The notes under the pieces: generated by a model
Database searches by the model: none
What the model was told of the DNA's origin: nothing
The model's input: the letters and a program-made list of their open reading frames with translations, nothing else
Source of the DNA: Flaviramulus sp.
GTDB taxonomy: Bacteria; Bacteroidota; Bacteroidia; Flavobacteriales; Flavobacteriaceae
Assembly: GCF_013001275.1 (NCBI RefSeq)
Contig: NZ_JABDMV010000046.1
Coordinates: 1-39,287, forward strand
Length of the DNA stretch: 39,287 nt
Direction: 5' to 3'
Made by a program: the position numbers and the translations under genes
In this document: piece after piece, positions 15,323 to 28,343 of the stretch
How the letters are laid out: each line of letters opens with the position of its first letter
How positions within the stretch are numbered: the stretch's first letter is position 1

Positions 15323-17746
15323 TTACATTTCCATACCGCCTCCGCCATCAAAACCACCTTGACGTTCACGTTTTTTCTTTTGATTGAATCTATACGTAAA
15401 AGATAGATTGAAAACCCTTCCACCTCTAAATTGAATTTCTTGATATGCTGTAAATGTTTCAGCAGTAATATCATTACTATAAAAAGCACTATTAAAAAGA
15501 TCTCTTACATTAAAAGCAATTGATGCTTTTTCTTTAAATAAATCCTTACTAAAGGCAAGATTTGTACTAAGTACACCTTTTCTGTTGTTCTGAGCATCTT
15601 GACTCGGCCCTCTGTAATTTAAATTTGTTTGCCAATCAATGTTGTAAGGTAAAGTTAATTTGTTAGTTATTCTTGCTCGCCAGCTAAGGTTATTGGCACT
15701 TAAGTCAACGTCTTCAAATCGTCCTTCTCGCTCGAATTTAAAAATGTTAAAATCACTATTAATTCGCCATTTTTTTGTTGGATTATAATTTAAATTAAAC
15801 TCAAAACCATAGCGTTTATCTTCGCCTAAATTTACCGGACCTCTTTCGATTACAGGGAATTCTTCTCCGTCAACAATAACAGTCTCGTCAGTCTTTCTAC
15901 TAACAAAGGTCATAATGTTTGTTGAGTGAGAATAATAGATTGATGAAGAAATAGTTAATTTATCTATTTGGTTTAGATATCCCAATTCAAAAGTACTTGA
16001 AAATGTTGGATTTAAATCTGGATTTCCTTGAAAGACATTTGTTATACTGGATCGAGATGGGAATGGGTTAAGCATAAAACCTCTTGGTCTACTAATTCTT
16101 CTATTGTATCCTAAAGTAAAACTTTGTGCGCTGCTTATTTCATAATTTAAATTAACAGTAGGAAATAATCCATTTATTATTTTTCTATTAAAATCCCCAG
16201 TAGTAGGTTGATCAAGAGTGATTCTAGTATTTTCAAATCTTAAACCTAACAGGTATGAAAATTTATCAATTTTACTTCCAAATTGAGTGTAAACAGCATT
16301 ATTATATTGCTTAAAATTAAATAGGTTAGTTAGGTCATTGTTAATTACAAAATGACCAGAAGAGGTATCCAAAAGAGCCACTTCAAAATCTGTAGATTTT
16401 GTTGTGAAATCTCCGCGATAACCTAATTCTATTTGACTCATTTCTCCAATAGGTAAAACATAATCAGATTGAAGCAAAATATTCCGTTGATCTTCAAGTG
16501 TAGCGACCATTTCAGTTTCCAAACCATTTACGGTAATAATAGAATTTTGATCTTCATTAGAATCCTCATATTGAAAATCGAAAGTTAATTTATGGTCAGA
16601 AGCCTCAAAATTCTTCGTAAAATTTACAGCATATTGAATAGTTTTATCGGTTTCTTGTTCAGGATCTAATCGTTCACTTTCACTTGTAGTATTATTAATT
16701 TTGTTGAACTGCACAAGTTTGTTAATAGAGTTATTTTCAGAACTATTATCTCGATAAACAACAGAAGTTGTTAAAGATGCTGAATCGTTAATGTACCATT
16801 CAATACCGGTATTTGTAGTAAGACCTTTGCTAGTATCTGTCCAATTACGTTTTTCATCTAAATCCGGAGTATTATTATCGAAGTACTTAACATCATTGTA
16901 CCATCTACCTACTGATTCTTGATATCTATATGAAGATGTGTTAAAAATATTGACATTCCCAGTTCTATAATTTATGTTTCCGGAGATTCCAGCTGCATCA
17001 GGATGCCCAATATTAGTTGTAACAGAGCCGTTTAAACCTAATAATTTGCTTCTACGTAAAATAATATTTAATATTCCAGCAGTTCCTTCAGCTTCATACC
17101 TAGCAGATGGTGAGGTGATTACTTCTACTTTTTCAATAGCTTCTGCAGGTAATTGTCTTAATGCGTCAGTAGAATTAAGTCCAACCAAACCGGAAGGTTT
17201 ACCATTAATAAGAATGCGGACATTATCGTTACCTCTTAAGGCCACATTTCCTTCCGCATCTACAGAAACGGAGGGTACATTATCTAATACATCACTTACG
17301 TTTCCTCCACTAACAGTAAGATCTTTACCAACATTGTATATTTTCTTATCTAAACGAATTTCAACAGTGGTTCGTTCGGCAATAATTTCAACTTCGTCTA
17401 ATGATTCAGTATTAATTTCAAGGGTAAAATTACCAAGATTTTCGGATTTTGATATTTCTTTGTTTGGAATTGTGATAGTACTAAAAGATATGTATTCAAT
17501 AGTAATATCATAAACATCTGTTAATACAGGAATGCTAAAGTTACCATTTACATCTGTTATTCCTCCTGTAATAATTTTGTTTTGAAGCTTGCTAAAAAAT
17601 GCTATTGTGGCATATTCTAAAGGTTGTTTAGTCTCTTTATCAATCACAGTTCCTGTGACTTTAACTTCTTTTCCTTCTGGTCTCTGGGCAAAACTAATTG
17701 CAGTTATCACACAAAATAGTACTAGCAGAAATTTAGATTTATTCAT
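15323..17746 (-). CDS. TonB-dependent receptor-like outer membrane beta-barrel protein
   Basis: This 807-residue outer membrane protein has a signal peptide (NKSKFLLVLFCVITAISFAQ, cleavage near residue 20), a carboxypeptidase-regulatory-like beta domain (about 28-110, GTVIDKETKQPLEYATIAFF), a plug domain (about 115-230, with NVSDVLDNVPSVSVDAEGNVALRGNDNVRILINGKPSG) and a barrel to the end. The barrel matches the Bacteroidota 'outer membrane beta-barrel family' in which the C-terminus ends in a Gly/Met-rich tail (GGFDGGGGMEM) instead of a terminal aromatic. There is no SusD partner, so it is not a SusCD polysaccharide pair. It may import a small ligand or act in envelope assembly. It is monocistronic. 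The receptor class is certain; the ligand is unknown. Confidence 0.92.
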   Translation of the reverse strand: MNKSKFLLVLFCVITAISFAQRPEGKEVKVTGTVIDKETKQPLEYATIAFFSKLQNKIITGGITDVNGNFSIPVLTDVYDITIEYISFSTITIPNKEISKSENLGNFTLEINTESLDEVEIIAERTTVEIRLDKKIYNVGKDLTVSGGNVSDVLDNVPSVSVDAEGNVALRGNDNVRILINGKPSGLVGLNSTDALRQLPAEAIEKVEVITSPSARYEAEGTAGILNIILRRSKLLGLNGSVTTNIGHPDAAGISGNINYRTGNVNIFNTSSYRYQESVGRWYNDVKYFDNNTPDLDEKRNWTDTSKGLTTNTGIEWYINDSASLTTSVVYRDNSSENNSINKLVQFNKINNTTSESERLDPEQETDKTIQYAVNFTKNFEASDHKLTFDFQYEDSNEDQNSIITVNGLETEMVATLEDQRNILLQSDYVLPIGEMSQIELGYRGDFTTKSTDFEVALLDTSSGHFVINNDLTNLFNFKQYNNAVYTQFGSKIDKFSYLLGLRFENTRITLDQPTTGDFNRKIINGLFPTVNLNYEISSAQSFTLGYNRRISRPRGFMLNPFPSRSSITNVFQGNPDLNPTFSSTFELGYLNQIDKLTISSSIYYSHSTNIMTFVSRKTDETVIVDGEEFPVIERGPVNLGEDKRYGFEFNLNYNPTKKWRINSDFNIFKFEREGRFEDVDLSANNLSWRARITNKLTLPYNIDWQTNLNYRGPSQDAQNNRKGVLSTNLAFSKDLFKEKASIAFNVRDLFNSAFYSNDITAETFTAYQEIQFRGGRVFNLSFTYRFNQKKKRERQGGFDGGGGMEM

Positions 17747-18200: not shown

Positions 18201-18817
18201 TAAATATTTATATTAAAGTTTTTTAATTGCTGAATGAGTTTTTCGGGAGATTTAAATTGGATGATATTAATACCTAATTTATTAGCAGCTTCAATATTTC
18301 TTAGGTTGTCATCAATGAAAATAGCATTTTCAGCTTTGATATTAAATCGTTCTAATGTTAGATTGTAAATCGCATCAAAAGGTTTTCTAGTTTTTTCTTC
18401 ACCAGAAACAATAATGCCTTCAAACCAATGCAAAAAATCAAATCGTTCTAAAGCAATAGGGAAGGTTTCAGCACTCCAATTTGTTAGGGCAACAACCTTA
18501 TAATTTTTGGATTCAAGTAGCTTTTTTAAAATTTCAACGGTTCCGTGAATAGCATCGCCTAACATTTCAACCCATCGTCCGTAAAACATTCGAATTTCTT
18601 TTTCATATTCTGGAAAAAGAGCCACTTTGTCCTCTGTAGCTTGAGCTATAGGATAACCAGCATCTTGATTTTCGTTCCAATCACTCGTGCAAATATTATC
18701 AAAAAACCACTGCATTTTTTTTCTGTCTTTATTGAAAACATCTAAAAAAACGTATTCTGGATTCCAATCAATTAACACGCCTCCTAAATCGAAAATAATA
18801 GTATCTATAGTTTTCAT
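18200..18817 (-). CDS. HAD family phosphatase (YihX / haloacid dehalogenase-like)
   Basis: This 205-residue HAD hydrolase carries motif [14 protein letters not shown] (nucleophile Asp near residue 9), motif II ALTNWS, motif III Lys in EEKTRKP and motif [14 protein letters not shown]. The cap region (about 15-90) is helical, typical of subclass IA, as in YihX glucose-1-phosphate phosphatase. The ATG overlaps the prfB stop (ATGA), and the stop overlaps the arsC-like start, so three genes are coupled. Substrate is unknown; a sugar phosphate is most likely. Confidence 0.88.
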
Positions 18818-19924
18818 AATTGACTGTCGTCTTCAATTTTCTGCCCCATCATCATTAGATAAGCTTTTAAAAACTCATCTATATTTCCATCCATAACCGC
18901 ATCAACATTACCAGTTTCATGAGCAGTTCTAACATCTTTTACTAGTTTATAAGGATGCATCACATAGTTTCGAATTTGACTTCCCCATTCAATTTTCATT
19001 TTACCGGCTTCAATATCATCCCGTTGTGCCAACTGTTTTTGTAATTCAATTTCATACAGTTGAGATTTTAGCATTTGCATGGCTCTACTACGATTATCGT
19101 GCTGCGATCGCGTTTCTGAACACGATATTTGAATTCCTGTAGGTTTATGTGTTAATTGAACTTTAGTCTCAACTTTATTTACGTTTTGCCCACCAGCACC
19201 GCTTGAACGTGCGGTTGTTATTTCAATATCGGCAGGATTTATGTCAATTTCTATGGTGTCGTCTACAAGTGGGTATACATAAACGGAAGCAAAACTAGTG
19301 TGGCGTTTTGCATTACTATCAAACGGCGAAATACGCACTAATCTGTGCACACCGTTTTCTCCTTTCAGCCAACCAAAGGCAAAATCGCCTTCTATCTCAA
19401 GTGTAACTGTTTTTATGCCGGCTACATCACCCTCTTGAAAGTTTAATTCTTTTACTTTAAAACCACTTTTTTCCGCGTACATTAAGTACATACGCATAAG
19501 CATACTTGCCCAATCGCAACTTTCGGTACCACCAGCACCTGCGGTAATTTGCAATACAGCGCTTAGGCTATCACCTTCTTCAGAAAGCATGTTTTTAAAT
19601 TCCAGTTTTTCAATTAGATAAAGAGCCTTGTCATAACGGTTTTGAACATCGTTAGCCGTAGCCTCCTCTTCTTTAAAAAACTCGTAAATAACCTCTAAGT
19701 CTTCTACTAGTGTTTTGGAACTTTTGAAATCTTGAACCCAGCTTTTTTTCTCACGAAGCGATTTCATTACCAGCTCAGCTTTTTTAGAATCGTTCCAGAA
19801 ATTAGGGTCGAAGGTTTGTTCTTCTTCGTTTTGTATTTCTATAAGTTTGGCATCAATGTCAAAGATAGTGCCTAAGCTTGTCGAGGCGGGTATTTAGATC
19901 TTTAATTTGATCGGAAGTAATCAT
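18814..19924 (-). CDS. prfB: Peptide chain release factor 2 with programmed +1 frameshift
   Basis: RF2 recognises UGA and UAA and triggers peptide release. The 317-residue in-frame ORF that starts at 19767 is only the C-terminal part. Reading upstream, the gene begins at an ATG at 19924, runs 21 codons to CTT, meets TGA (19861-19859) followed by C, and must shift +1 to continue as GAC. Coding is therefore 19924-19862 then 19860-18814, giving about 369 residues, the normal RF2 length. The RF2-specific tripeptide SPF is in [12 protein letters not shown], and GGQ is in [15 protein letters not shown]. The frameshift makes synthesis of RF2 self-limiting. It is the first gene of the prfB-HAD-arsC operon. 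Both the identification and the frameshift are firm. Confidence 0.95.
19858..19864 (-). promoter_or_regulatory. prfB +1 programmed frameshift site (CTT TGA C)
   Basis: On the minus strand the bases read CTT TGA C, preceded by TAT, identical to the classical prfB slip site. An AGG lies two codons upstream of CTT, but there is no long AGGGGG stimulator as in E. coli. When RF2 is scarce, the ribosome slips from CUU to UUU, bypasses the UGA and makes RF2. Confidence 0.92.
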
Positions 19925-20088
19925 TTGTAGAATTTATTTGTACAAAAATAGTATTTATACTTTCGGAAGAAAACAATTGTTCATTTAATTTTTACGGGAT
20001 TATTAAGAGTCTTAACGATTTTATTTAATTATAGATTTATTAAGCATTATTTTTAAACTGTTTTTAAACCTAAATTTCACATTAATAG

Positions 20089-21141
20089 ATGAAGTTGAGT
20101 ATTTTAATACCAATGTATAATGCAGAAAACTATATTGGCAATTGTTTGGATAGTTTAATAAATCAAGATATTTCTAATGATGAGTATGAAATTATTGTGA
20201 TGGATGATGGTTCCACAGATAATTGTTCAAAAATTGTAAAGAACTATATTGAAAAAAACGAAAATATCACTTTATATAGTCAAAGTAATGCTGGTTTATA
20301 TTCAACAAGAAATAAGTTATTAAAACTGGCTAAAGGTGAATATATATATAATTTAGATGCAGATGATTATATAATGCCTAATACATTAAAAATATTAGTG
20401 TCGCATGCCATTGACAATAATGTCGATTTAATTTGTTTTGACACTAAAGAAACATTAGATCTAAAAGATAAGTTTGACGAAAGAATTAAGATAGAAAACA
20501 TAGAAATTTTAGATTCAGGTATGGATTTTATTTACCATTACAAACATTTAAGACACGAAGTTTGGTGGTATTTTATTAAAAGAAAATTTTTGAAAGATAA
20601 TGGTCTTGAATTTAGTAATAACCAATATAATGCCGATGTTCTTTTCACTTTAGAGATGCTATTACTATCAAATAAAATACTTTACATAAAACAGCCAATA
20701 CATCGTTATGTGCAAACCGAGAACTCTATAATGCGTAATAACGATTTAGCTTTTAAAATTAGGCGAATTGAAAACATGTTCAATATGATTCTGGACAAAT
20801 CTAAATTTGTCAATAAAATTATTAAGAATGATTTTTCCAACAAAAAACGAATTTTAGAGAATCTAAAATATAGAAGAGATGTATTTACTTATTTTACAAT
20901 AATTAAAATGTTGCAAATCAACTTAAACATTAGAACTTTTAAAAGCAAAATTCAACAATTAGAAAAATTAAAAGCATACCCAATTAAACATTTTATAGGC
21001 AAAGAATACAATACGATTCAATATAAGTTTATTAATTATGTTATTAACCAGAAAATAATTTTATTTTCGATTGTATATATTAGTAACGTTTTCATTAATG
21101 TTTTGGATTGGTTATCTCTAAGAAAAAATATTTTCAAATGA
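20089..21141 (+). CDS. Glycosyltransferase family 2, paralog A
   Basis: This 350-residue protein has the GT-A fold of GT2: KLSILIPMYNAENYIGNCLDS at the start, the nucleotide-binding VMDDGSTDN (about residues 43-51) and the DxD-type metal motif NLDADDY (about residues 89-95). It continues with EVWWYFIKRKF (near residue 160), NADVLFTLEMLL and a C-terminal hydrophobic, possibly membrane-associated, helix. It is the first gene of a four-gene operon, and the next gene overlaps its stop by the ATGA arrangement. The two GTs share motifs along their whole length, indicating tandem duplication. Donor and acceptor sugars are unknown. Confidence 0.9.
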   Translation: MKLSILIPMYNAENYIGNCLDSLINQDISNDEYEIIVMDDGSTDNCSKIVKNYIEKNENITLYSQSNAGLYSTRNKLLKLAKGEYIYNLDADDYIMPNTLKILVSHAIDNNVDLICFDTKETLDLKDKFDERIKIENIEILDSGMDFIYHYKHLRHEVWWYFIKRKFLKDNGLEFSNNQYNADVLFTLEMLLLSNKILYIKQPIHRYVQTENSIMRNNDLAFKIRRIENMFNMILDKSKFVNKIIKNDFSNKKRILENLKYRRDVFTYFTIIKMLQINLNIRTFKSKIQQLEKLKAYPIKHFIGKEYNTIQYKFINYVINQKIILFSIVYISNVFINVLDWLSLRKNIFK

Positions 21142-22172
21142 AATTGAGTATAATCATCCCAGTTTATAATTCTGAAAAATATATAAGGAGATGTCTTGAT
21201 AGTTTGTTATGTCAAAATATTGAATACAAACATTACGAAATCTTTATTATAAATGATGGTTCTACTGATAATAGTTTAGATATTGCTTTAGCTTATGAAA
21301 AAAAATACCCTCAAATCAAGGTATTTAGTCAGCTCAATAGCGGTGTAGGAAGTGCGAGAAATAAAGGCATAGAACTTTCGACTGGAAGTTATTTATACTT
21401 CATTGATCCTGATGATTACCTTGTTCATAATGTTTTAAATAAACTATTAGATTATGCTTTTAATTTTAATTTAGAAATTCTATCGTTTAACTCAAAATCG
21501 ATTAAAAACATTAACGTAGTAACTACTAAAAATACTTTAAAGCGAAACACAAAATTACAAAAACAAACAGGAATAGCATATATTGGAGACCGGTTCTATA
21601 AAAACGAGGTTTGGTGGTACATTATTAATAGAAAATTTTTAAAAAATACTGGAATTAAATTTATTGTAGGAAGATGGATGGAAGATGCTATCTTTACTGC
21701 TCAGCTATTTTTAAAAACGAAGGCAATCGCCCATACAGAAATAGATGTTCATTTACATGTAATTACACGAGGTTCTGCAATGACGAGTAAAGAGCCTGGT
21801 CATTATTTGAATGTTATTAGAGACAATGCGAACGCCGCTATAATTTATAAATCATTAATAAATCAAGCTGAGCTTGCTGAGCCGTATAATGATTTATGTG
21901 TCAATAGGCTAAAAACAAGACAGCAATCTTTTGTTTTTTTCATGATGATTAGAATGTTAAAGTCTACTATAAAATATAAAGAAGTAAAATCAATAATAGA
22001 TGGTATGACTGTTGCAGGAGCATATCCGTTAAGTTCTTTTTTAGGAAAAGATTACAACGGTAAAATTTATTATATACTTGTCAAACTATTTAATAATCGA
22101 TATGTTTATTATATTTTATTCCTAATCTTTAATCCATTATTAAAAAAAGTTATTTTATTTAAAAAAAAATGA
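21138..22172 (+). CDS. Glycosyltransferase family 2, paralog B
   Basis: This protein of about 344 residues starts at the ATG at 21138, which overlaps the stop of the previous gene as ATGA; the frame extends back to a TTG at 21108 but that is unlikely. The fold is GT2: SIIIPVYNSEKYIRRCLDS, INDGSTDN, and FIDPDDY in place of paralog A's LDADDY. It shares EVWWYIINRKFLK, a later RMLK segment and the C-terminal AYPLSSFLGKDYN with paralog A. A basic hydrophobic C-terminal tail suggests membrane association. Donor and acceptor are unknown. Possibly the two paralogs add successive sugars in one glycan. Confidence 0.9.
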   Translation: MKLSIIIPVYNSEKYIRRCLDSLLCQNIEYKHYEIFIINDGSTDNSLDIALAYEKKYPQIKVFSQLNSGVGSARNKGIELSTGSYLYFIDPDDYLVHNVLNKLLDYAFNFNLEILSFNSKSIKNINVVTTKNTLKRNTKLQKQTGIAYIGDRFYKNEVWWYIINRKFLKNTGIKFIVGRWMEDAIFTAQLFLKTKAIAHTEIDVHLHVITRGSAMTSKEPGHYLNVIRDNANAAIIYKSLINQAELAEPYNDLCVNRLKTRQQSFVFFMMIRMLKSTIKYKEVKSIIDGMTVAGAYPLSSFLGKDYNGKIYYILVKLFNNRYVYYILFLIFNPLLKKVILFKKK

Positions 22173-22195
22173 ATATCATCAAAAATTACGAGTAA

Positions 22196-23161
22196 ATGAG
22201 TAATATTTTAATTACTTCAGCGGGAAGAAGAGTTTCACTAGTTAGGGCTTTTAAAAAAGAATTAAAACAATTAATTCCAAATGGAAAAGTATACGTTACC
22301 GATTTTAAACCGGAATTATCAGCAGCTTCACAAATAGCAGATAAGGAATTTAGAGTTTATAAAATAGATGATAAGAATTATATAAATATTTTGCTAGAAC
22401 TATGTGTAAAAAATAATATAAAACTTATTATTCCAACACTTGATTCAGAGCTTCTTATACTTGCTCAAAATATTAATAAATTTAAAGATTCTGGAATTAC
22501 AATTGTTATTTCGGATGAACATTTTGTTAATACATGTTATAATAAAATAGCTACTCAAGATTTTTTTGAAAATTCAAATATCAGAGTAGCTCTTGTGTAT
22601 AATAAAACTAATTTTAAATTACCATTATTCATAAAACCAATAAACGGAAGTAATAGTATAGATACAACCATTGTTAAATATGAGAATCAAATTTCAAAAT
22701 TTCATATTGAGAATGACGAGCTCTTTTTTTTCGAATATATAGATAGTGATATATACGATGAGTTTACCTGCGACCTATATTATGATAAACGTGGCCAGCT
22801 TAAATGTGTAATACCCAGAAAAAGAATAGAAGTAAGGGGAGGTGAGATTAGTAAAGGAGTTACATGTAATAATAGAATTAAAAAAATTATTGAAGAAAAT
22901 TTTAAAACTATTAAAGGCGCACGCGGATGTATAACTATGCAGTTTTTTATGAATAATGATGAAGATGTAATAGGAATTGAAATTAATGCTAGATTTGGCG
23001 GCGGTTTTCCATTATCATATTTAGCTGGTGGTAATTATCCTAAATGGATTATTCAGGAATACTTATTAAATGAAAATATAGCTTATTTCGATGATTGGAA
23101 AACCGATTTGTTAATGCTTCGTTATGACGAGGAAATTTTGGTAGAAAATTATGAAAACTAA
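22196..23161 (+). CDS. ATP-grasp domain protein (carboxylate-amine ligase-like)
   Basis: This 321-residue protein has the ATP-grasp order: an N-terminal Rossmann-like pre-ATP domain (NILITSAGRRVSLVRAFKKE), a PTLDSELLILAQ strand, then the lysine-containing strand PLFIKPINGSNS (about 142-153) and the metal site EINARFGGGFPLSY (about 260-273). It resembles the PylC/carbamoyl-phosphate-synthase-like group found in surface polysaccharide clusters. ATP-grasp enzymes join a carboxylate to an amine or thiol through an acyl phosphate. The stop overlaps the HAD gene start by 11 bp. The natural substrate is not inferable. Its place after two glycosyltransferases suggests decoration of a glycan precursor with an amino acid or similar unit. 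Confidence 0.85.
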   Translation: MSNILITSAGRRVSLVRAFKKELKQLIPNGKVYVTDFKPELSAASQIADKEFRVYKIDDKNYINILLELCVKNNIKLIIPTLDSELLILAQNINKFKDSGITIVISDEHFVNTCYNKIATQDFFENSNIRVALVYNKTNFKLPLFIKPINGSNSIDTTIVKYENQISKFHIENDELFFFEYIDSDIYDEFTCDLYYDKRGQLKCVIPRKRIEVRGGEISKGVTCNNRIKKIIEENFKTIKGARGCITMQFFMNNDEDVIGIEINARFGGGFPLSYLAGGNYPKWIIQEYLLNENIAYFDDWKTDLLMLRYDEEILVENYEN

Positions 23162-23813
23162 TAAAGTAGTCGTTTTCGATTTAGATGATACACTTTATAA
23201 CGAAATTGATTATTTAAAATCTGCCTATTCTGAAATTTCTGATAAAATATCAAAACTTATAATTATTGAAAAAAAAATAATTTATAAAGATCTTTTATAT
23301 TTTTATTATTCAAAAGCTAATCCATTTAAAAAAATTATTAGTAAGTATTCAATCCCTTTAGATGTCAATGATTTACTTGTACTCTATCGTAATCATAGGC
23401 CTAATTTGGTTTTAACTCAGGATAGATTAGAACTATTTAGATATTTAAAACATATAAACATACCAATTGGCTTAATGACTGATGGAAGAAGTGTGCAGCA
23501 AAGAAATAAATTAGAAGCCTTAAATATTTCTAGTTTTTTTTCGGAAATTTTAATTTCAGAAGAATTTGGAAGCGAAAAACCTTCGTTAGAAAATTATAAG
23601 CATTTCGAGAATAAATTTGGAGACGCTTCATATTATTATATTGGAGATAATATTTGTAAAGATTTTGTTACGGCTAACAAACTAAATTGGACCACTATTT
23701 GTTTGATTGACAATGGATTGAATATTCATAAACAAGATAAAGAGGTTCCTGATATAAATTATTTTGCTCAATTTAGAATTACTTCTTTTAAGGATATTGT
23801 CGAACTAGTTTAG
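23151..23813 (+). CDS. HAD family hydrolase, partner of ATP-grasp gene
   Basis: This 220-residue HAD hydrolase shows motif I VVFDLDDTLYNE (nucleophile Asp about residue 10), motif II LMTDGRS, motif III Lys in GSEKPS and motif IV YYIGDNICKDF. The cap is inserted between motifs I and II (subclass I). It overlaps the ATP-grasp gene by 11 bp, so the two are translationally coupled. The pairing of ATP-grasp and HAD enzymes recurs in flavobacterial polysaccharide clusters, which suggests a small-molecule phosphatase acting on the same precursor. It is the last gene of the operon, followed by a bidirectional terminator. Confidence 0.85.
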   Translation: MKTNKVVVFDLDDTLYNEIDYLKSAYSEISDKISKLIIIEKKIIYKDLLYFYYSKANPFKKIISKYSIPLDVNDLLVLYRNHRPNLVLTQDRLELFRYLKHINIPIGLMTDGRSVQQRNKLEALNISSFFSEILISEEFGSEKPSLENYKHFENKFGDASYYYIGDNICKDFVTANKLNWTTICLIDNGLNIHKQDKEVPDINYFAQFRITSFKDIVELV

Positions 23814-23854
23814 TTTTAAAATAGTTTATTTGTATTAAAGTTTAATATAAATAA

Positions 23855-23882
23855 AAAGACCTGAGGTATACTTCAGGTCTTT
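23855..23882. terminator. Bidirectional terminator between glycan operon and lipoprotein gene
   Basis: A 10-bp stem AAAGACCTGA / TCAGGTCTTT with an 8-base loop, flanked by A and T runs. It separates two convergent genes and can end both transcripts. Confidence 0.82.
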
Positions 23883-23904
23883 CATTAATTATTTTCAAGT
23901 TTAA

Positions 23905-26727
23905 TTATGCGGCAATATCTAAGCTGCATTCGTTGCCTTTTCCATCCTTATGATATGTAACTAAAAAGGTTCCATCATTTCGACTATTTTCGTCGTCATC
24001 CTCAGGATCGTCGTAAATACCCATGTTTCCAAAAGTACTTTTGTGTGCATTTACATTTCCTAAGATATCATCTGAACAACTGGTATGAATTGCAGCTTCT
24101 ACAGTCCCATTTACAGACCAGTACCACCAATTACCGATATCACCTAATTCAGCTGTAAGAATTGTTCCTTTTTGAACATTATCCCAGGATTTAGAGTTGT
24201 TTCCATCTTCATCATCACCTACTGTAATGGTTGCTCCATTTGGACCACTATATTCTACACTCATTTTAACGATTTTTCCGTCACAATCACATTCAGTACT
24301 TGCAGGAGGAGTGTCATCCGGTTCAACGGGACATAACTCCCCACCATTACGACTCGCGCCACCTAATACAGCGAAATCACCAAATATAGATCCTGCACCA
24401 ATTTCTACTGAACAACTTGTATGAATTCTTTGATTCTCAACTCCATCAATTTTAATTATGATTTCAGTTCCTAAAGTTCCTTTGTCATCTTTACCATTAA
24501 TCGTGAATTCTGCACCTGAAGAAACAGATCCATCATATACAACCTGTCCATCCTTCTTTTGTGTAATTTCTATAGAACTACCTGAACCATTATATTGAAG
24601 ATCTAATCGTGTGATTTTTCCATCACATTCAGAACAGTCATCTCCAGGAGGTAATTGTGAACATCCATCTACACTTGTTACATTACCATCTTTATCTACA
24701 TATTCTACAACCTTAAGGTCACCATAACTTAAACCTAAAATATTATCTGAACATGATGCATGTATTTCTCCTACATTATTCCCATTAACAAATATTTCAG
24801 GGTTAGATAGTTTATCACCATCAAAAGTAGCTAACGTAACTGTACCGTTACCATTATCTGTAAAGGATGCATCATCGTCATCCGATGATAGGTCATTTAC
24901 ATCACCGCTATAAGTAAAAGTCACTGAAACTATACCGCCATTACACTCACATTCCGTGTTTGTTGGAGGCACGTCAACAGGACATAACTCGCCACCTTCA
25001 CGACTCGCACCGCCTTCAACAGTGAAATCTCCAAATACAGCTCCAGCACCAATAGGATCAGAACAACTAGTATGAATTCTTTGAGCCTCAAAACCGTTTA
25101 CATATATAATTATTTCAGTTCCTAAAGTTCCTTTATCATCTTTACCATAAAAGGTAAAAGTATCACCAGCCATTACATTACTATCAAAAGCAATTAAATT
25201 GTCTTTCTTCTGTACAACTTGAACTAAAGCATCACTTGTACCGTTATATGTAAGATCTAATCTTGTAACTTTTCCTTTACATTCATTACAGTCATCTCCA
25301 CTACCTGGAGGTGTATCTACTGGACATAAATCGCCACCTTCTCGACTTGATCCGCTAATAACTTCAAAATCTCCACTCATTAATCCAGGACCAATAGGTT
25401 GTGAACAACTTGTATGTATTTTAGTGTTTACTACATCATTTACATAAATAGTAATCTCAGTACCTAAAGTTCCTTTTTTATCGTTTCCAACAAAACTAAA
25501 TTCAGCTCCTGCTTCAACCATTCCTTCAAAAACAACTTTTTCTCCATTTTCACCATCTTTTTTAGTTTCAACTCTAATGTTAGCATCTTCGGCACCATTA
25601 TATTGTAAAGTTAAATTGTTAACTTTTCCTTCACATTCATCACACGCCTTAGGGCATAAGTATGCACCATTCGTACTCTTGCCGCTTATAACTTCAATAT
25701 CTTCAAGTATTAAGCCGGGGCCTATATCTTCAGAACAATCTGTTTTAATTTTTACATAATCACCATCAACATATACTTTTATTTCGTCTCCGAATGTTCC
25801 GTTTTCATCATTACCATAAATAGTAAATGTTCCTCCTGGACCAACGTTTCCTTCAAAAACAATTTTACTACCGTTTACACCTTCATCTTTTGTTTTTACT
25901 TCAATGTAAGCATCTTCAGTACCATTATATTGTAATGTTAATTCGGTAACGTTACCTTCGCAATCTTTACATTCTTCTTCTATTTCTTTGCATTCATCTA
26001 TAAGGAAATTAAAATCCATCTTCCATAATCGTTCTTTAGTATCTAAGTCAAATATCCAACCCCAAGTACTTAGTCCAATTGCGCCTTTATTAGAATCATA
26101 ATTAGCTCCACCAGGACCAACATGAGCTCCAAAATTATCGGACTGTGTGAATGGATCTGGTCTTTGTTCTAAACCATATATTTTACCAGATTCTACACCT
26201 GTTCCACAAGTTCCGGTAGCTTTTAGAGTACTGTTTTCTGAATCAATAACGTAAAAATTCATATCACCAGATTGAGATGCATTTCCTGCAGTACCCTCTT
26301 TTTTATGATTGCCAGGAATACCGTTAATTGTAGAAGTACTCCAATCATCCCAGTTTTTTTTATTTATTAACCTAACATCAACTTCAACAACGCATCCTTT
26401 TTCGTTAATTGTAGATCCTATTATACGTGCTGTATTATCATCTACTTCAATAAAATTTAGTTTATGGTCTTCTGAAGATGAAAAATATGTTGATGTTGTA
26501 AAATAATCATTTCCTCCATTTAATGACCACCATAAATTGGCAGCTGGTTGACGATCTCCAAAAGGAGCACGGTCTGCATCGATTACCTTACACTCAACAA
26601 CACCGGATTGTGGCGAACTTGAGAATGATTCCGATTGAATAGAACTTTCTTGCAAATCTAGAAGCTCATTTTGGCAAGAGAAGATTAAAAAGGAAATCCC
26701 TACAAGCGTAAAAATAATTTTTTTCAT
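23905..26727 (-). CDS. Large surface lipoprotein with six cysteine-bearing repeats
   Basis: This 940-residue protein has a lipoprotein signal peptide (FTLVGISFLIFSC; Cys 18, followed by QNELLDLQE). Residues 45-245 form a non-repeated head rich in aromatic and Gly residues (NLWWSLNGG, STWGWIFDL). Residues 253-934 hold six tandem modules of about 100 residues. The consensus runs from CxxC(or CxC)-(D/E)GK.T.L.LQYNG through GKDDKGTLGTEI.IYVNG to IHTSCS..IG.G...GDF.V and GG.LCP. Modules 1, 2, 3 and 5 are close; 4 and 6 are divergent. Each has about four Cys, so disulfides are likely outside the cell. No enzyme motif, SusD-type region or T9SS C-terminal domain is visible. A function in adhesion or the surface layer is inferred only. 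The charge pattern after Cys 18 is only partly like the surface-export signal of flavobacteria. A plausible promoter lies 36 bp upstream. Confidence 0.85.
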   Translation of the reverse strand: MKKIIFTLVGISFLIFSCQNELLDLQESSIQSESFSSSPQSGVVECKVIDADRAPFGDRQPAANLWWSLNGGNDYFTTSTYFSSSEDHKLNFIEVDDNTARIIGSTINEKGCVVEVDVRLINKKNWDDWSTSTINGIPGNHKKEGTAGNASQSGDMNFYVIDSENSTLKATGTCGTGVESGKIYGLEQRPDPFTQSDNFGAHVGPGGANYDSNKGAIGLSTWGWIFDLDTKERLWKMDFNFLIDECKEIEEECKDCEGNVTELTLQYNGTEDAYIEVKTKDEGVNGSKIVFEGNVGPGGTFTIYGNDENGTFGDEIKVYVDGDYVKIKTDCSEDIGPGLILEDIEVISGKSTNGAYLCPKACDECEGKVNNLTLQYNGAEDANIRVETKKDGENGEKVVFEGMVEAGAEFSFVGNDKKGTLGTEITIYVNDVVNTKIHTSCSQPIGPGLMSGDFEVISGSSREGGDLCPVDTPPGSGDDCNECKGKVTRLDLTYNGTSDALVQVVQKKDNLIAFDSNVMAGDTFTFYGKDDKGTLGTEIIIYVNGFEAQRIHTSCSDPIGAGAVFGDFTVEGGASREGGELCPVDVPPTNTECECNGGIVSVTFTYSGDVNDLSSDDDDASFTDNGNGTVTLATFDGDKLSNPEIFVNGNNVGEIHASCSDNILGLSYGDLKVVEYVDKDGNVTSVDGCSQLPPGDDCSECDGKITRLDLQYNGSGSSIEITQKKDGQVVYDGSVSSGAEFTINGKDDKGTLGTEIIIKIDGVENQRIHTSCSVEIGAGSIFGDFAVLGGASRNGGELCPVEPDDTPPASTECDCDGKIVKMSVEYSGPNGATITVGDDEDGNNSKSWDNVQKGTILTAELGDIGNWWYWSVNGTVEAAIHTSCSDDILGNVNAHKSTFGNMGIYDDPEDDDENSRNDGTFLVTYHKDGKGNECSLDIAA
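23926..25971 (-). repeat. Six tandem protein-coding modules in the surface lipoprotein
   Basis: Module boundaries on the minus strand are approximately 25971-25654, 25641-25321, 25287-24979, 24954-24658, 24636-24325 and 24291-23926. The ends of modules 2, 3 and 5 are recognisably similar at the DNA level (for example GGACATAA followed by CGCCACC or CCCCACC), showing fairly recent duplication. Modules 4 and 6 keep the framework but not the details. Four cysteines recur in most modules. Confidence 0.8.
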
Positions 26728-27326
26728 AATTTTTAAATTAAAATAAAGTTAATTAATAGCATTAAACATAAAAAACTAACAAACAAACACCAATTATATA
26801 TTTTCGAGGAGTATGTTGATTGTGAGAGTGTTACTTAACAATTTAGTTAATAAATTTTTATTAAAATAATTAGTTCGATTATTTGGCAATAAAATTCGAT
26901 ATAAGAATAGTTCTTTAAATTTTAACCGGTAAATCTTATACTGGATAAAAAAGTAACTAGTCTGAGAGTTTTAATTAAATTTTCCCAAAAATAATTTAAC
27001 TATATATTGATTAATAACAATTCTAACTACGAATATATTCTTATTACCTCCATTAAGTCAAAATTTTCGTTCTATGAATTATTTATTTGTTTAACAGATT
27101 ATTAGAGCAAAATTTTCGTTAAAATGCAACTAACAAAGAATATTTGGATTATTTTTTATCGACGAACAGATAAAATGTTAGTTTTTTTCGATAACTAACA
27201 ATATTATTTATTTAAATACTGATATTAAATAGGTTTAGTTGCTTTTTACATAAGCAATTGTAAGAATTAATGAAAAATATAAACCTAATCGTTAATATTT
27301 TATAGTTTTATCAAAAATACTGTTTT
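26728..27326. other. 600-bp AT-rich divergent intergenic region
   Basis: This is the longest gap in the window, between the lipoprotein gene (leftward) and threonine aldolase (rightward). I find no ORF with coding character, tRNA or terminator. It holds the lipoprotein promoter near 26763-26793, a 13-base direct repeat CAAAATTTTCGTT at 27059-27071 and 27108-27120, and an 8-bp inverted repeat TGTTAGTT / AACTAACA at 27176-27183 and 27193-27200. No clean TAnnTTTG is visible for the rightward gene. Confidence 0.6.
26763..26793 (-). promoter_or_regulatory. Candidate promoter of the repeat lipoprotein gene
   Basis: On the minus strand, TTG (complement of 26791-26793) and TATGTTTA (complement of 26763-26770) are separated by 20 bp, one mismatch from TAnnTTTG. 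The -7 box lies about 36 bp upstream of the ATG. Confidence 0.4.
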
Positions 27327-28343
27327 ATGATTATTGACCTAAGAAGCGACACCGTTACAAAGCCATCAAAACAGATGTTAGAAGCTATGATGGAAACCCA
27401 AGTTGGAGATGACGTGTTTAGAGAAGATATAACCGTAAACCAATTAGAAACCCGAATTGCAAATATGTTTGGTATGGATGAAGCATTGTTTTTTCCTAGC
27501 GGAACTATGGCAAACCAAACAGCTTTAAAGCTACATACAAATCCTGGAGAACAGGTTATTTGCGATAAATATGCTCATATTTATAATTACGAATCTGGCG
27601 GCGTATCATTTAATAGTGGAGTATCATGTAAACTTTTAGATGAAAATAATGGGATGTTTAAAGCAGATGATGTATTGAAAGCCATAAATCCTGCTGATTA
27701 TTATTACAGTAAAACAAGTTTGGTAGAAATTGAAAACACGGCTAATAGAAGAGGTGGTACCTGTTGGGATTTTAATGAAATAAAAAAAATCAGAATGGTA
27801 TGTGATGAAAATAAACTTGGTTTTCATCTTGATGGCGCGCGCATTTGGAATGCTTTAGTTGCAAAAAACGAAACAGCCAATCAATATGGTGAAGTATTTG
27901 ACACCATTTCGGTTTGCTTAAGTAAAGGATTAGGTTGTCCTGTCGGGTCTGTATTAGTTGGTGACTCTAAAATAATGGAAAACGCGATTAGAATACGAAA
28001 AATATTTGGAGGCAATATGAGGCAAGCTGGATATTTGGCAGCTGCCGGACTTTTTGCTTTAGATAATAATATTGATAGATTAAAAGAAGACCATAAAAAA
28101 GCAAGGGAAATAGGTATAGTTTTAGCACAATTACCAATAATAAAAAACGTGGAGCGTATAGAAACAAATATTGTAATCTTTGAATTAAATGAAGATGTAA
28201 GTCTAAACGATTTTGTAAATAAACTTGCCGATAATAATATCCGTATAATAAGTATGGGAGGAAACAAGCTGCGTATGGTAACCCATTTAGATTACAATAA
28301 TGACATGCATTCCATACTTATTAAATTTTTAAAAAACTTTTAG
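27327..28343 (+). CDS. ltaE: Low-specificity L-threonine aldolase (PLP-dependent)
   Basis: This fold-type I PLP enzyme splits L-threonine or L-allo-threonine into glycine and acetaldehyde. The 338-residue protein opens with IDLRSDTVTKPS, has LFFPSGTMANQTALK (about residues 54-68), HLDGARIWNA (about 166-175) and the PLP-lysine in CLSKGLGCPVGSVLVG (about 196-211). These are diagnostic for the threonine aldolase family. It converges with the EbfC gene with a gap of 4 bp. It supplies glycine or removes threonine and may also act on other beta-hydroxy amino acids. Assignment is firm, though low-specificity status is not tested by sequence. Confidence 0.93.
   Translation: MIIDLRSDTVTKPSKQMLEAMMETQVGDDVFREDITVNQLETRIANMFGMDEALFFPSGTMANQTALKLHTNPGEQVICDKYAHIYNYESGGVSFNSGVSCKLLDENNGMFKADDVLKAINPADYYYSKTSLVEIENTANRRGGTCWDFNEIKKIRMVCDENKLGFHLDGARIWNALVAKNETANQYGEVFDTISVCLSKGLGCPVGSVLVGDSKIMENAIRIRKIFGGNMRQAGYLAAAGLFALDNNIDRLKEDHKKAREIGIVLAQLPIIKNVERIETNIVIFELNEDVSLNDFVNKLADNNIRIISMGGNKLRMVTHLDYNNDMHSILIKFLKNF

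Follow-up and report, generated by a model that had tools for sequence, protein, structure and literature searches.

A candidate surface tether in Flavobacteriaceae: a lipoprotein carrying DUF7467-type modules behind an exchangeable N-terminal domain

Adhesins of Gram-positive bacteria that carry a thioester domain (TED) display it at the far end of a stalk anchored in the cell wall. The domain corresponds to PF08341, with SfbI as an example in the available portion of PMC4450167. For Bacteroidota, the available portion of a survey of isopeptide bonds (PMC12617251) places isopeptide domains, not TEDs, in the phylum. A literature search on thioester domains in Bacteroidetes adhesins returned a review of monoderm bacteria, one on thioester domains and lipoproteins in Flavobacterium returned nothing, and a broader one showed nothing relevant among the papers listed, none of which proves absence from print. 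A further family, DUF7467 (PF24269), has a Pfam entry that states no function, and a literature search found no paper mentioning it and no role. Here we analysed a 39,287-nucleotide contig of Flaviramulus sp. (NZ_JABDMV010000046.1, assembly GCF_013001275.1; the whole stretch is referred to as the window), from a bacterium related to Algibacter. It encodes a lipoprotein, P0001, with six four-cysteine modules behind a distinct N-terminal domain, here called head A. We favour, with somewhat better than even confidence, the reading that P0001 is an outer-membrane lipoprotein acting as a surface tether or adhesin, in which an exchangeable domain lies close to the membrane and the modules point outward.

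The open frame encodes 940 amino acids, spans exactly 23905-26727 on the minus strand and is intact, in agreement with the lipoprotein gene proposed there by a first-pass annotation of the DNA; a plus-strand reading of the same interval is riddled with stops and was ruled out. The protein has 29 cysteines and a pI of about 4.2. Its signal peptide (26674-26727), read by eye from the sequence, is lipobox-like and ends FLIFSC18, with Cys18 presumably lipidated (FLIFS/C). Head A follows (aa 44-246; 25990-26598), and the N-terminal part to about residue 250 is unrelated to the modules, as the annotation had it in describing a non-repeated head. The modules were detected with a hidden Markov model (HMM) trained on 17 modules taken from other genomes, with none from the window, and were also scanned singly with DUF7467. 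They are, in order, M1 (aa 252-360; 25648-25974; outside profile 122 bits, DUF7467 32.7 bits), M2 (aa 361-470; 25318-25647; 140.5 and 55.5 bits), M3 (aa 479-584; 24976-25293; 123 and 53.8 bits), M4 (aa 592-692; 24652-24954; 22.7 and 18.2 bits), M5 (aa 697-801; 24325-24639; 119 and 49.2 bits) and the C-terminal M6 (aa 812-940; 23908-24294; 29.7 bits and no Pfam match), all on the minus strand. As the best score over 200 residue shuffles of P0001 was 3.9 bits against 22.7 bits for the weakest module, the six modules are not a product of chance.

A peptide-pattern scan of genome contigs, using six patterns of one protein, yielded one relative, Algibacter luteus. In the same chromosomal slot as P0001 this species has three DUF7467-type lipoproteins, and the slot is flanked, as in the window, by prfB, HAD, ArsC-like and TonB-receptor genes at one end and by those for threonine aldolase, YbaB and POP at the other. 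The leaders are near-identical in two of the A. luteus lipoproteins (FLIFSC-QNELLDLQE in the window, FLFFSC-QNELLDLQE in A. luteus). The first module of the 971-aa A. luteus protein is 84 % identical to M1, and M6 shares 66 % identity along its length with an A. luteus module in C-terminal position (G162:C7:56626-57027). One of the three A. luteus lipoproteins, of 431 aa, reaches only 18.1 bits for DUF7467, below the cut-off of 27. Between leader and modules, however, lies a different domain. Scanned alone, one A. luteus N-terminal domain reached 24.8 bits for the TED family PF08341, above the cut-off of 22. Two other A. luteus proteins, scanned at full length, stayed below it at 21.8 and 19.6 bits, and a TED-type protein from another genome (G264) gave no PF08341 match at E ≤ 0.1. 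In nine of nine aligned copies of the TED-type domain, from six genomes, a WC cysteine, a Q-[WY]-AIW helix and a late glutamine are kept, a pattern that fits the Gram-positive TED motifs in the available portion of PMC4450167. The A. luteus base domain appears to be thioester-type, resembling in sequence the domains used for covalent attachment. Head A has no WC...QxAIW pattern on reading its sequence and does not match PF08341. The likeness to the Gram-positive adhesins lies in relatives, where a TED-type domain is combined with DUF7467 modules, and not in the window protein; they differ in that the relatives belong to a Gram-negative family and have their TED-type domain behind a lipoprotein leader. 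Shared leader and module kinship, a different domain between them and the same slot together suggest a tether with an exchangeable base. In the public A. luteus contig we also observed a run of unknown bases inside the tandem array (L033, 5863-8071), which may mean that near-identical modules could not be assembled there or that the collection masked them.

The module is already known to databases as DUF7467. In a Pfam scan P0001 matched this family at 175.4 bits in four stretches (cut-off 27), and of the modules scanned singly M1, M2, M3 and M5 exceed the cut-off and are members, while M4 falls below it and M6 is undetected. The profile search that had been proposed as a check leads to a family without a stated function. 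The first-pass annotation had described six modules sharing an IHTSCSxxIG motif, a GKDDKGTLGTE loop and an LCP end. Six modules with four cysteines each are indeed present, but the full motif set occurs letter for letter only in M3 and M5. IHTSCSxxIG is exact in M2, M3 and M5, with IKTDCSEDIG in M1, IHASCSDNIL in M4 and IHTSCSDDIL in M6. The loop is exact only in M3 and M5, reads GNDKKGTLGTE in M2 and GNDENGTFGDE in M1 and is missing from M4 and M6, and the LCP end is present in M1, M2, M3 and M5. Four modules are thus canonical (M1, M2, M3 and M5) and two divergent (M4 and M6). In an alignment of 21 rows the invariant positions are the four cysteines and one glycine, and the TSCS and GTLG regions are conserved. 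Because the four cysteines are invariant in these rows two disulfides per module are plausible. No enzyme family was found among the profile matches of P0001, scanned whole or as single domains, in line with the annotation's view that it has no known enzymatic motif, and nothing in NCBIfam exceeds its cut-off for P0001. The whole protein scored 33.5 bits for DUF4590 (PF15257; cut-off 27), yet a single module reached 18.7 bits at best, so that this score is likely a sum of weak matches or the effect of a shared fold; the DUF4590 literature, in its available portion, concerns ciliary ERICH3.

AlphaFold2 models of head A with M1 (mean pLDDT 92.4, pTM 0.75) and of M5-M6 (mean pLDDT 82.0, pTM 0.54) predict each module to be a small beta-sandwich, as had been expected. 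The models of M5 and M6 have seven strands in the same order, and M6 adds an inserted loop at pLDDT < 50. Fold comparison of the modules returned only generic immunoglobulin (Ig)-, fibronectin type III (FnIII)- or C2-like matches, with VIA Z of about 5 for M1 and M5. For M5-M6 the best VIA Z was 5.3, in rows that cover M5 only and barely reach M6, and the top Foldseek rows include FnIII pairs and Fim pilins at E 0.0092 or worse with an rmsd mostly > 12. M5-M6 would thus share a common arrangement with tandem FnIII/Ig-like and pilin domains and not membership of those families. A PDB sequence search with P0001 gave no match at E ≤ 1, and module-profile PDB matches at E 0.14 (the hemolytic lectin CEL-III) and 0.4 were treated as chance.

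Head A matched no Pfam family at E ≤ 10, and a profile of head A and M1 found no PDB sequence relative at E ≤ 10. It is modelled with high confidence as a beta structure, predicted to be a barrel, and its best fold matches are barrels, led by a designed barrel at Z 9.2 and followed by matches at 7.8, 7.7, 6.5, 6.4 and TbpB at 5.7, all but the first being below Z 8, the range where common arrangements are expected. Since the domain follows the lipidated N-terminal cysteine it would be membrane-proximal and the modules distal, with M6 outermost should the N-terminus be the anchored end. A C46-C246 pairing is supported solely by the loss of both cysteines in one row (L069). Two further head A cysteines, missing from the window protein, go together in all 23 rows, both absent in 3 and both present in 20, the first of the two lying one residue further on in L052 and L054.

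Homologues of head A occur in 21 of 397 Flavobacteriaceae genomes, with 24 matches. By our reading of these 24, head A is followed by DUF7467 in four, by a third domain in 11 (nine assigned by BLAST, one the reference and one by eye) and by nothing in two, the remaining seven lying in larger multidomain proteins. The third domain is conserved and cysteine-bearing, with the pattern CETAFARG...RWGW...AGAGQCD...VAPGQYTI (proteins L050, L051, L054, L055, L060-L063 and L066-L068), and one protein that carries it (L119:7696-8856) gave no Pfam family at E ≤ 0.1. It stands in place of DUF7467 in a TED-type protein of genome G181 and before a DUF7467 module in L106 and L098. Head A of G124 (L041 8146-9954 / L049) is broken into two parts (aa 54-233 and 347-368) by a complete DUF7467 module at about aa 240-346. 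In the window model the insertion point falls in a predicted loop that connects two long strands. Given the swapped bases in relatives, the orders in which the third domain occurs and the module inside head A, barrel, TED, third domain and DUF7467 are recombined across relatives as a combinatorial toolbox.

Of 299 Flavobacteriaceae genomes, 13 contain a match to DUF7467 itself (11 of them above the cut-off), as do 8 of 395 in a phylum sample that overlaps the former and none of 14 control genomes; the genus-level sample consisted of the window's own genome. The comparison of module number that had been suggested shows one to six modules per lipoprotein among relatives and seven in one large protein. 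DNA identity is 62-72 % among the four canonical window modules and 44-51 % in pairs with M4 or M6, which agrees with the annotation's remark that some modules are alike at the DNA level and others diverged. Its proposal of continuing copy-number change holds for the family and is not borne out within this gene. At 62-72 % identity there is no sign of recent duplication within the window gene, whose modules look old, and in a module tree M1 joins an A. luteus module, AlB_1 (98/93), while M6 joins the A. luteus C-terminal modules (96/89). The same tree contains lineage-specific groups, G124_2 with G124_3 (96/96) and A. luteus AlB_2-4 (100/100), so that duplication across the DUF7467 family continues; 11 of the 27 inner forks of this tree are open and the long branch of M4 is unsafe. 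Arrays of four and seven modules occur in large proteins outside the lipoprotein group (L079, L074 of G521 and L035 of G008). The only other place in the window's genome found with P0001 (G000:C32; L002, L047) has a frame of at least about 871 aa with one DUF7467 module, DUF7507 and SprB repeats, DUF7507 being listed among domains with predicted isopeptide bonds in the available portion of PMC12617251. The DUF7467 proteins in L035, L040 and L044 end, by eye, in an apparent C-terminal domain of the type IX secretion system (T9SS). P0001 has no such domain by eye and was rejected as T9SS cargo.

Beyond a terminator-like hairpin predicted on both strands at 23854-23883, where the lipoprotein gene converges with its neighbour, the window has on the plus strand two family 2 glycosyltransferase (GT2) genes, GT2a (20089-21141; PF00535, 115.5 bits) and GT2b (21108-22172; PF00535, 115.1 bits), a PylC-like/ATP-grasp ligase (22196-23161; PF21360, 94.2 bits; PF15632, 43.5 bits) and a HAD hydrolase (23151-23813; PF13419, 60.3 bits). 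These neighbours make a glycan connection of P0001 plausible, and to that extent the annotation's suggestion of an adhesin, matrix component or partner of a surface glycan stands. The interval from prfB to threonine aldolase (18814-27327 in the window) is a variable glycan island in the Flavobacteriaceae genomes examined, with varying sets of GT2, ATP-grasp, HAD, CapK-like and sugar-transferase genes.

Neighbourhoods were compared in 22 genomes, 16 with a head A lipoprotein (G000, G124, G350, G327, G302, G168, G019, G006, G239, G102, G086, G104, G395, G217, G315 and G134; G239 placed by coordinates alone) and six with a TED-type one (G162, G044, G264, G131, G245 and G181). Left aside were the seven larger multidomain head A proteins, G103 (a short contig) and DUF7467 lipoproteins with neither head. 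The stretches were compared with a fixed list of reference genes and other glycan genes may be missed; MnmE, DnaN, CapK-like, ArsC-like, POP and SprB-type are names given by eye unless backed by Pfam. The lipoprotein genes recur in two slots, one between prfB and threonine aldolase/YbaB and the other beside MnmE and DnaN. Of the 22 genomes, 14 (12 with head A, G131 and G245) have a GT2 or sugar-transferase gene close to the lipoprotein, a count that becomes 18 if CapK-like genes are included. Close relatives of GT2a (≥ 245 bits, a threshold chosen after the list was seen) occur in 12 of 289 genomes, in nine of them within about 9 kb of a head A or TED-type lipoprotein. The Fisher p of 2.8e-9 for this association is post hoc. 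Its table has 22 head-carrying genomes of 289, a different 22 in which G103 and the larger proteins are included, and takes the 289 to be the genomes numbered G000-G288. The association between glycosyltransferase (GT) and lipoprotein genes is real in this sample, yet with relatedness uncontrolled it may equal shared residence in a hot spot, given that the slots hold GT genes without the lipoprotein too. The simple rule that GT genes and the lipoprotein always go together was given up in view of the slots that carry GT genes and no lipoprotein.

We infer that the lipid would hold P0001 in the outer leaflet, where it would be surface exposed. The barrel, or the thioester-type domain of relatives, would sit at the membrane and engage a cell-associated partner, while the modules, braced by disulfides, would extend outward as a stalk; the divergent M4 and M6 may also bind. 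The likeliest partner, named tentatively, is a surface polysaccharide, which may be a glycan of the cell itself and to whose synthesis the neighbouring glycosyltransferase, ATP-grasp and HAD genes would contribute.

Several observations weigh against the tether and its glycan partner. After the lipid cysteine P0001 continues CQNELLD, that is polar residues and then one acid at +4. The export signals of Bacteroidota lipoproteins in the available portion of PMC5080379 are of the QKDDE, SDDDD or SDDFE types, which residues +2 to +6 (QNELL) fit loosely. Foldseek returned no solved structure at E ≤ 0.001, and no binding residue or ligand was identified. In four genomes (G162, G044, G264 and G181) the only candidate glycan gene is CapK-like, a name given by eye to proteins that gave no Pfam match in two tests. 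Four others (G395, G217, G315 and G134) have no GT2, sugar-transferase or CapK-like gene near the lipoprotein, and their genomes contain no GT2 relative above 86 bits anywhere. Conversely, in the stretches examined G072, G070 and G208 carry GT2a in the prfB slot without such a lipoprotein, G017 and G013 hold other GT genes in that slot and G188 one in the second, again without it, and in two cases (G006:C35 and G086:C4:57592) a close GT2 relative is located well away from the lipoprotein.

It is possible, though less likely than not, that the modules and not the base domain do the binding, P0001 being a multivalent adhesin in which each bead binds glycan or protein and the barrel is a mere base. 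Variation in module number, the presence of modules in other contexts, such as large SprB-type proteins, where these heads are missing, the divergence of M4 and M6 and the conserved TSCS and GTLG regions are what such an adhesin would lead one to expect. The invariant residues, however, are four cysteines and a glycine, which fit a structural role, single-module proteins are common among the TED-type lipoproteins, and no ligand-binding residues emerged in the modules.

We regard as rather doubtful the view that the lipoprotein is a hitch-hiker in a variable genomic island, where it would serve surface antigen variation with no functional tie to the glycan genes. GT genes without the lipoprotein in both slots, and lipoproteins without GT genes in the second (G395, G217 and G315), speak for it. 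Against this stand the nine of 12 genomes in which GT2a and lipoprotein co-occur and the distribution of CapK-like genes, found with TED heads in four of six genomes and with head A in none of 15 (14 searched and the ORF list of the window; p = 15/5985 = 0.0025, calculated by hand with relatedness uncontrolled).

That the lipoprotein is an acceptor, decorated by the adjacent glycosyltransferases into a surface glycoprotein, seems improbable to us. In its favour, close GT2a relatives adjoin such lipoproteins in nine of 12 genomes and in two different chromosomal slots, but GT2b, ATP-grasp and HAD genes stand beside a sugar transferase with no lipoprotein in the stretch examined in G222, G288 and G080, which is what polysaccharide synthesis predicts, and four of the 22 lipoproteins have no GT gene near. 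A nutrient-capture or periplasmic lipoprotein with a SusD-like use, to which the TonB-dependent receptor-type gene at 15323-17746 would lend itself, is very improbable. That receptor is not specific to the lipoprotein, since it stays with prfB even in three genomes (G072, G070 and G208) whose examined stretches gave none, and no SusD-type family is among the P0001 profile matches.

Upstream of the lipoprotein gene lies an AT-rich intergenic stretch of ~600 bases (26728-27326). Rfam gave no match at gathering score in the window, this stretch included, and between 19700 and 27400 there were 41 promoter-like sites against a mean of 48.5 in shuffles, and thus no excess. Plasmid and phage records gave no match at 1e-5.

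Extended to the family, the tether with an exchangeable base could form part of a Gram-negative glycan-anchoring system, a proposal we consider speculative and on balance unlikely. A standard DUF7467 stalk would be combined with a base matched to the neighbouring polysaccharide, the TED base bonding covalently to an amine- or hydroxyl-bearing glycan and the barrel base holding a different glycan non-covalently, with head and glycan genes swapped as cassettes at the two slots. The present analysis places DUF7467 as the stalk common to lipoproteins that exchange their base domain, in the clearest case at one chromosomal site, and among the exchanged bases is a domain of thioester type, otherwise best known from adhesins of Gram-positive bacteria. 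Should the base domain recognise the neighbouring glycan, this would offer a testable explanation of how capsule or exopolysaccharide is kept on the outer membrane of flavobacteria.

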